Source: Thiotrichaceae bacterium
GTDB lineage: Bacteria; Pseudomonadota; Gammaproteobacteria; Thiotrichales; Thiotrichaceae
DNA: 10,352 bases
Reading direction: 5' to 3'
NCBI GenBank assembly: GCA_027024625.1
Contig: JALVRY010000366.1
Coordinates: 445-10,796, forward strand
Each line of letters opens with the position of its first letter. The stretch's first letter is position 1. Below the pieces are notes generated by a model, which was not told the DNA's origin, did not search any database, and worked only from the letters and a program-made list of their open reading frames with translations. The translations under genes were made by a program, and so were the position numbers. Below are positions 1 to 10,352 of this stretch, one piece after another.

Positions 1-558
1 TGTTAATTGTGTGCCTCCGGTATTTATTCTGTTAAAAATATCATATACCATTTCAAGCGGAACCGACGGTTGAATAAGATAAACAAGTAATTTAGTGTCT
101 TCTATTTTTGTTTGATATTCAGGATTGAGTTTAATTAAATCATCAAAGTTTTTTCCATTCAATTCAGGCAAGGCATTTAATTCGGATAACCTAAATTCAT
201 TATGTAAGAATCGTTTTAAAGTTGTCAGTCTTTGTCGGCCATCAACAACGATATATTTTCCCTCTTTATTCAGCTTGAAATCAGGGCTAAACATGGCGTA
301 AGCGGCGGTGGGAGCATTACGATCACCAATGGATTTTCCATCATCACCTAATGATGCTGCTCCACCAACACCGTTATCACGGTCGTCAATAAATCCTTTT
401 GCGGGATTGTGGCAAGTTGAACAAGATTGAGTTTTATTTTTTGATAGTTTTTTATCAAAATATAGCTGTTGCCCAAGTTTTTCCTTGGTGACTTCTGCCA
501 ATACATTATGAGAAATTAATAGTGTGCATATTGCACCAATAAGTATTGAATGACGCAT
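1..558 (-). CDS. Chimeric ORF: MauG/CcpA-like di-heme peroxidase N-terminus joined in frame to a DUF262-like domain (partial, runs off left edge)
   Basis: The frame is open from an ATG at 558 to the window edge (186 codons, no stop). The start has a good AAGGAAA ribosome site and lies 10 nt after the DUF1513 stop. Residues 1-21 form a Sec signal peptide ending VLA. CSTCH at residues 46-50 is a c-type heme site, and residues 22-100 read like a MauG/cytochrome c peroxidase N-terminus (LYFDKKLS, CSTCHNP, GFxD, DRNAPT). That family should continue GKYI-GG-FWDGR into a second heme domain. Instead, after GKYI (101-103) it reads VVDGRQRLTTL and later FNRINTGGTQL (about 175-185), hallmarks of the cytoplasmic DUF262 (GmrS-type) domain. 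The peroxidase half fits the operon; the DUF262 half does not. A functional exported hybrid is unlikely. Rearrangement or an assembly misjoin near 246-258 explains it better. Confidence 0.85.
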   Translation of the reverse strand, partial: MRHSILIGAICTLLISHNVLAEVTKEKLGQQLYFDKKLSKNKTQSCSTCHNPAKGFIDDRDNGVGGAASLGDDGKSIGDRNAPTAAYAMFSPDFKLNKEGKYIVVDGRQRLTTLKRFLHNEFRLSELNALPELNGKNFDDLIKLNPEYQTKIEDTKLLVYLIQPSVPLEMVYDIFNRINTGGTQLT

Positions 559-6999: not shown

Positions 7000-7266
7000 T
7001 TATGCTTTCTGTTTTCTTTGCTTTATCCACCAAAATACGGCGAATGGCAGTGGGAGCAGTAACAATATTTGAGCTGAAACAGTTTCCAGTGTTGGGTGCA
7101 ATCCTAACCAAGATATACGTGGAAACCATTCAATAGGCGTAATACCGATCCACTTGGCTTCTTGTAGTTCCAATACACCATTGCCTGCAAATGTAACCGC
7201 TAAGTAGTAAAGCAAGATAGCGGTAGCAGTAAAAAATAGACCAATCGGCAAGCGATAAGAGGCTGT
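7000..7266 (-). pseudogene. FTR1 iron permease, C-terminal part downstream of an in-frame stop
   Basis: This segment is in the same reading frame as the preceding FTR1 ORF and is separated from it only by TAA at 7267-7269. It starts TASYRLPIGLFFTATAILL and holds the two last membrane segments of the FTR1 fold. These are about LFFTATAILLYYLAVTFAG and, after a loop with GVLELQEAKW and a Trp/Pro-rich stretch, VSAQILLLLPLPFAVFWWI, then a basic tail WIKQRKQKA. The LELQEAKWIG.TPIEW loop is typical of FTR1 C-termini. A TTG at 7251 could start a separate 83-residue polypeptide, but no good ribosome site precedes it. The best reading is the detached C-terminus of the upstream gene, not an independent small membrane protein. 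Its intact sequence suggests the stop is recent, is read through, or is a base-call error. Confidence 0.85.
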
Positions 7267-8190
7267 TTACATTACCCAATAAATACCTGCTAGAGCGACA
7301 GCGGCAGCAGCAAAGCCAAAGACAATTGCTAAACTATTGCCTTGTGTTTGCCCAACTAATGCTTGATAAAATAGAACTGTTTCAGCCCCTTCTCGATACA
7401 CTGCTAAGAAAGCAGCAAAACCAAGTGCGAAAGCACTTCCTTTGGAAATAGCATTGTTAATTTGCCCTTTAATCCATGACTGCCAACGAGCAGATTCACT
7501 TTTAGAAATTAGCCAGTAACTCACATAGAATAATACAATCGCTGCAACTAGCATGGTAGTGCCTTCTAATGCTTCTCTAGCTTCACCTGATACTTTAAAG
7601 ACGGCACTCAGTAAATATGCGGTTAATACGCTGGCAACTAAGGCTAAACCAACACCGTTATAAATAACAGAAAGTTGCTCCATTGCTTCTTGGCGACGTA
7701 AATAGGTGACTAAAGCGGTGATAACCAGCATGGCTTCAAAGCCTTCACGTAATAAAATCAAAAATGATTGAACGAGCAATGACCAAAATCCTTCATTATC
7801 ACCTGACTCTCCTTGTGAAGCTGCGGTATCTTGCAATAACGCATTTAATGATAACCATGCTTTTTCAACATCTTGCTTTGGTTTTCCTTTAGCGGCTAAA
7901 CCAATCACTGTACTAAAGTGAGACTCTAATTCAGTTTTTAGGCTTGGTTTTTCCATAGCGATTGCCATTTCTAAACCTTTACCTTCAAATACATCAAAGT
8001 ACAGAGAAGAAAACTCGTCACTAATATCTAAAGCATTTTTTGCTTGGTATTGGTCAATTAAGGCATTACCTTTTACAGAAATTTCATCAACAACCACTTG
8101 ATAATCAACTGGCTTACTTGCTTCTTCTGCTTGTATAAAAGGGCTACAAGCTAGCAAGAATAAAAGTGCAAAACGCATCAATGGTTTCAC
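7267..8190 (-). CDS. FTR1 family high-affinity iron permease, interrupted after five membrane segments
   Basis: The GTG start at 8190 abuts the lipoprotein stop, with GGAGG 8 nt upstream; ATG 8178 would be 20 nt away, so GTG is preferred. Residues 1-21 are a signal peptide (FIQA). Residues about 25-130 form a periplasmic domain with YFDVFEG (64-70). The permease core then begins. REGFE (148-152, in LLREGFEAMLV) and REGAE (266-270, in YREGAETVLF) are the two REGxE iron-binding motifs that define FTR1/EfeU. About five membrane segments are visible to residue 307 (GIYWVM), where TAA at 7267-7269 stops the frame. The remaining two segments continue in the same frame (7000-7266), giving about 395 residues if restored. 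FTR1 moves ferric iron across the inner membrane, normally with an oxidase or redox partner. Without the last two segments, function is doubtful. Confidence 0.92.
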   Translation of the reverse strand: MKPLMRFALLFLLACSPFIQAEEASKPVDYQVVVDEISVKGNALIDQYQAKNALDISDEFSSLYFDVFEGKGLEMAIAMEKPSLKTELESHFSTVIGLAAKGKPKQDVEKAWLSLNALLQDTAASQGESGDNEGFWSLLVQSFLILLREGFEAMLVITALVTYLRRQEAMEQLSVIYNGVGLALVASVLTAYLLSAVFKVSGEAREALEGTTMLVAAIVLFYVSYWLISKSESARWQSWIKGQINNAISKGSAFALGFAAFLAVYREGAETVLFYQALVGQTQGNSLAIVFGFAAAAVALAGIYWVM

Positions 8191-9862: not shown

Positions 9863-10352
9863 TCACGTCGAAACATTAATGATTAAACCATCATTAATCC
9901 ATGAACTAATTAATTCAACAGCTCGTTGTGGTGTATTCATTTCATCTATCCATTCACACAAACCTTCGCAGATTTCTGCAAAATTATTACCTTCGATTAT
10001 CGCATCAAGCGCCCATGCTTCATCAACCTGTAGTGATTTATAGAAGATTTTTAGTTTACCTTCACGCCAGATTCTCCAACTGATAGGGTATTCATTTTCT
10101 TCTGCGGGAATAGGGGCTTGTTTATTTTCAATGGCTTGCCAAAGTGCGGGAGTATTCCATTTTAAATTAAGACGATGAACTGAAGGGTGAAGCCTAAAGT
10201 GCATTTCTCCCCATTGTTCAGGTGGGATCGCTTGTAACGCTTCGATGGTGATGGTTTGTTCATCGGAAGAATCAAATGCAGCTCGTAATGCCCACTCAAA
10301 CTCTGCCATTTCAGCAAACACTGGAGTGTATTTATACTCTTCCATATCGTGC
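9863..10352 (-). CDS. HvfC/BufC-type peptide-modification chaperone, C-terminal part (DUF2063-family partner; truncated by window edge)
   Basis: About 162 residues are visible. The frame remains open to the window edge (codons for His-Asp precede the ATG at 10345), so that ATG is probably internal and the N-terminal DUF2063 domain lies outside. The visible part matches the HvfC/BufC C-terminal domain. It has FAEMAEFEWALRAAFDS, then IEALQAIPPEQWGEMHFRLHPSV, LNLKWNTPALWQAIE, ISWRIWREG, DEAWALDAIIEGNNFAEICEGL and a terminal SSWINDGLI. In known systems such proteins partner with a DUF692 multinuclear-iron enzyme (HvfB/BufB/MbnB) that modifies cysteines of a small metal-binding precursor. The enzyme and precursor genes would be expected to the right, outside the window. 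Its place beside Fur-box iron genes is suggestive but may be coincidental. Older annotations call the family 'putative DNA-binding'. Confidence 0.8.
   Translation of the reverse strand, partial: HDMEEYKYTPVFAEMAEFEWALRAAFDSSDEQTITIEALQAIPPEQWGEMHFRLHPSVHRLNLKWNTPALWQAIENKQAPIPAEENEYPISWRIWREGKLKIFYKSLQVDEAWALDAIIEGNNFAEICEGLCEWIDEMNTPQRAVELISSWINDGLIINVST

Follow-up and report, generated by a model that had tools for sequence, protein, structure and literature searches.

The window analysed here is a stretch of 10,352 nt from a draft Thiotrichaceae genome (C366:445-10796, contig JALVRY010000366.1). The assembly comprises 490 contigs, is 83.2% complete and 6.6% contaminated, and is probably a metagenome bin. 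Pfam matches identify FTR1, two imelysins, a DHOR di-heme protein, an OprD-type porin and DUF1513 ahead of a peroxidase gene, and a ferritin gene lies upstream. Operons that combine imelysins with di-heme peroxidases are a known part of iron uptake (PMC3143127). The FTR1-type iron permease gene (7000-8190, minus strand) contains an in-frame stop at about 7267-7269, beyond which permease-like sequence continues in frame; the piece downstream of the stop, taken alone, has no Pfam match, and the stop would be a sequencing error, a strain variant or the mark of a broken gene. A 160-aa ORF (9863-10345, minus strand), located past the ferritin gene where the window ends on the right, likewise has no Pfam match.

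At the left end of the window, the peroxidase gene runs into sequence of another kind. The features concerned are as follows.

250..558, minus strand: N-terminal 103 residues of a di-heme peroxidase native to the operon, with CSTCH as the first heme motif (PF03150, E 1.8e-17)
250..270, minus strand: codons of the shared segment NKEGKYI, the switch site, from a codon comparison of 13 DUF262 loci and 7 peroxidase loci
1..249, minus strand: fragment of an NsnA (Menshen DUF262) gene, almost certainly foreign, with its left end at a 10-N gap (PADLOC NsnA, E 6.2e-32; identity to the protein P0008)

Translation of the window gives one open minus-strand frame, 558..2, of 185 residues. It starts with a signal peptide, judged by eye, and contains CSTCH (residues 46-50), DRNAPT, VVDGRQRLTTL (from residue 104) and FNRINTGGTQL (175-185). 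CCP_MauG (PF03150) matches residues 25-102 (64.8 bits against a cut-off of 25.6), and GmrSD_N/DUF262 (PF03235) matches residues 97-185 (E 2.6e-12; 47.7 bits against a cut-off of 33.2). With these scores both halves exceed chance, and the first-pass annotation, which had read a single frame passing from a peroxidase into DUF262, is borne out. Residues 22-100 are 65–73% identical to intact peroxidases of the same bacterial family (L004-L011). From its sequence, the underlying gene encodes an ordinary di-heme peroxidase and is the last in an iron operon of the imelysin/FTR1 type, carried by a gammaproteobacterium near Cocleimonas/Thiotrichaceae.

Leftward extension, which the first-pass annotation had proposed as a check on whether DUF262 continues, shows that it does not. 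A run of 10 N (C366:435-444) adjoins window base 1, and after it the peroxidase itself resumes: in the same orientation, the frame reads TNPSEMGMPDKATTVERI...TNCNLCHQL. This C half matches PF03150 (E 5.3e-12), which is thus matched on both sides of the gap, and it supplies the second heme motif, CNLCH, so that the two halves together carry two CxxCH motifs. Alignment to L007, an intact peroxidase from the same bacterial family, gives 68% identity for the N half (L007 residues 17-113) and 72% for the C half (L007 residues 126-231). The N half stops at NKEGKYI and the C half restarts at (T)NPSEMG, with 20 residues (60 nt) absent relative to L007; the space is taken by 249 nt of DUF262 sequence and the 10 N. 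A continuous peroxidase frame of about 370-390 aa is therefore not found here, interrupted as it is by the DUF262 piece and the gap, and a search of the genome did not recover the last third of the protein (L007 residues 232-380). The sequence of C366 that follows CHQLK is also not peroxidase. It diverges right there, and this far end (C366:1-117; L002:1-117) has no significant match in Pfam, in plasmids (best E 1 and 9), in its own genome or in 62 further genomes from the family. Perhaps this contig end, too, is foreign.

The DUF262 piece corresponds to the middle of NsnA, the Menshen DUF262 protein (PADLOC PDLC03877, profile positions 104-190 of 385). Among the best 120 of 1,524 protein hits, P0008 is identical to I103-L185 at 83 of 83 residues, an identity established at the protein level; P0008 is an intact, free-standing protein of 439 aa encoded elsewhere, on a 2,338-nt contig. 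The closest relative in named genomes comes from a Campylobacteraceae bin, L034 (87% protein identity; 204 of 258 nt), where NsnA, NsnB and NsnC are consecutive. The piece has a GC content of 31.3%, whereas sampled contigs of the assembly average 39.9% (s.d. 4.2) and 2.8% of their 2,349 overlapping 246-nt windows are as low; NsnA of L034 has 28%. Low GC is suggestive of a foreign piece but not decisive. In 44 genomes of L034's family, the donor gene has one match at E <= 1e-100, from L034's own genome (82%). Viral contigs yielded a single relative, 55% identical to P0008, and plasmids no match to the donor-gene DNA. A Vibrio phage record (PQ189377, L024) carries genes annotated as Menshen NsnA, NsnB and NsnC next to a Type II methylase and an integrase. 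A literature search found no paper that pairs Menshen with NsnA, or imelysin with DUF1513.

Could the two parts form a normal protein? The first-pass annotation had named this as the outcome that would overturn its reading of an abnormal join, and the searches speak against it. All 36 hits to the whole frame cover one part only (18 the peroxidase, 18 DUF262), and none of the 240 relatives listed from the single-half searches (the best 120 of each) contains both. Among the 57 genomes searched, the genome's own included, 39 had a match. Each half was tested separately on 22 relative loci (19 from this search and three stretches taken because their matches were long or weak), of which 20 had the peroxidase only, two had DUF262 only and none had both; some weak peroxidase matches extended beyond the join, to residue 114 or 126. 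A real domain fusion is rejected, no other protein among the hits examined having both parts. A GmrSD-type DUF262-DUF1524 restriction enzyme was considered as well and finds no support: DUF1524 (PF07510) had no match at E <= 10 in the same protein or among the contigs searched, which may leave out those below 3 kb, and in a control the same profile was matched in 7 of 14 genomes.

The switch had been placed at residues 101-105, and we locate it within that interval, at residue 103/104 (window about 250/249). The two families do share a short word there, as had been suggested, yet its extent is (N)KEGKYI at window 250-270, slightly to the right of the GKYI segment put at 246-258. A codon comparison finds KEGKYI-GGQF in the L007 peroxidase and KEGKYI-VVDG in the DUF262 proteins of L034 and L037-L039; a further DUF262 protein, P0242, has NKEGKYI-VVDG. 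Among the listed hits that retain the conserved motif, EGKYI precedes it in 32 of 119 DUF262 proteins and 5 of 118 peroxidases. Since the same short peptide precedes the motif in members of both families, these could share a DNA word as long as about 19-22 nt, as estimated from relatives, P0008 itself lacking KY. P0008 has KEGDFI where the window has KEGKYI, and KY would therefore most simply be the peroxidase's own. The proposal of microhomology joining thus holds in outline: members of both families encode KEGKYI at the join, the donor being assessed by the codons of its relatives. A length of about 19-22 nt is near the smallest k of common assemblers.

We conclude with high confidence, on the evidence of sequence comparison, that the apparent fusion is an assembly chimera, in which foreign sequence ends a contig next to a scaffold gap, and not a new protein. 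Its basis is directly visible: a run of N, peroxidase on both sides, 60 nt missing in comparison with an intact relative, and the DUF262 piece matched without a difference by an intact protein that stands on its own. The foreign part both adjoins the gap and exists intact elsewhere, the latter in P0008 and at the protein level. The first-pass annotation had offered two possibilities, a rearrangement that brought a defence-type gene fragment to the operon end or an assembly chimera; the peroxidase beyond the 10 N strongly indicates the latter, and the former is unsupported. The chimera may have arisen as follows. Extension of the contig through the peroxidase gene would have reached the short shared word (N)KEGKYI, where the path would have jumped into the NsnA gene of a different organism from the sample. 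It would have continued there for 249 nt, at which point the contig would have ended. A scaffolder would then have joined it to the contig with the remaining peroxidase and inserted a standard 10-N gap. The jump would thus be the work of the assembler, neither of the library nor of an event in vivo, and the donor probably another organism, perhaps one of the Campylobacterota to judge by its nearness to L034.

Other joins in the same assembly help to place this one. In 43 contigs (298,349 nt) from a sample of 60 there are four N runs, of which three measure exactly 10 N and the fourth 61, and this recurrence makes 10 N look like the standard gap of the assembly, left by a scaffolder and not by masking. 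In two of the three 10-N gaps, sequence is repeated across the gap, which indicates that scaffold joins here are unreliable. At one of these (L108; G000, C380, 2661-3498), 413 of the 414 positions to the right of the gap are the same as on its left, an unmerged overlap within a frame that we take to resemble a glycogen-branching-type enzyme. At the other, 39 20-mers recur across the gap. No such repeat occurs at the third 10-N gap, at the 61-N gap or at the C366 gap (0 shared 20-mers at C366). Scaffold joins in this assembly are thus not always sound, and the two faulty gaps are repeats, not chimeras.

It is very improbable that the join is real, that is, that an element bearing NsnA inserted or recombined into the peroxidase gene, whether in all cells or in a part of them, with the rest of the insert lost in the gap. 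The short shared word would also fit microhomology recombination, and Menshen genes do occur on mobile DNA such as the Vibrio phage, but the far side of the gap is peroxidase and not the remainder of NsnA, and no footprint-like repeat pair was found near the join. Nor was a further GmrSD_N/NsnA gene found in the genome, where the contigs searched may exclude those below 3 kb; absence of the Menshen genes under that limit is not proof. A full-length NsnA followed by NsnB and NsnC was not found in searches for NsnA and NsnB: the fragment stops at the gap, and the NsnB profile has two short, weak matches elsewhere in the genome (E 0.002 and 0.03). We accordingly give very little credence to the version in which true microhomology recombination carried a Menshen gene into the iron-operon peroxidase and left part of the population with a disrupted or fused gene. 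Hardly credible is a chimeric DNA molecule formed during library preparation or amplification, then sequenced and assembled, which would yield an identical join at the same short shared word, but such molecules are usually rare relative to true ones, and foreign sequence at a contig end that directly adjoins a scaffold gap seems more typical of an unresolved assembly graph.

Were the join true, it would mean that a defence gene had become lodged in an iron operon, and we found nothing in support of this. Read as an assembly chimera, the locus shows how a short shared word can yield a believable in-frame fusion protein in a draft genome, and the bases that adjoin a scaffold gap should not be taken as gene architecture.

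Finally, the locus can be compared with three known systems. It resembles the MauG-like di-heme cytochrome c peroxidase (PF03150) of L007, which is identical to P0122, 'methylamine utilization protein MauG [Cocleimonas sp.]': both halves match this one protein, and DUF1513 lies just upstream in both. This neighbourhood is not general, since DUF1513 was not found near the peroxidase at the other eight of nine loci checked, within flanks of up to about 1.5 kb. Unlike L007, the present gene has foreign sequence and a gap in place of the 20 residues between the halves, and non-peroxidase sequence after CHQLK. The likeness to Menshen NsnA lies in the profile match and in residues 103-185, identical to part of the intact NsnA-like P0008; the difference is that the piece here covers only about 87 of 385 profile positions, and the NsnA start, the NsnA end and NsnB were not found alongside. 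In the mock-community test of PMC8172020, chimeric sequences are reported to have been located always at contig ends. As in those chimeras, foreign sequence stands at a contig end, with a short shared word at the join. The two genomes involved there are highly similar, whereas here they are not, and here the reading frame is kept, so that the product resembles a fusion protein.
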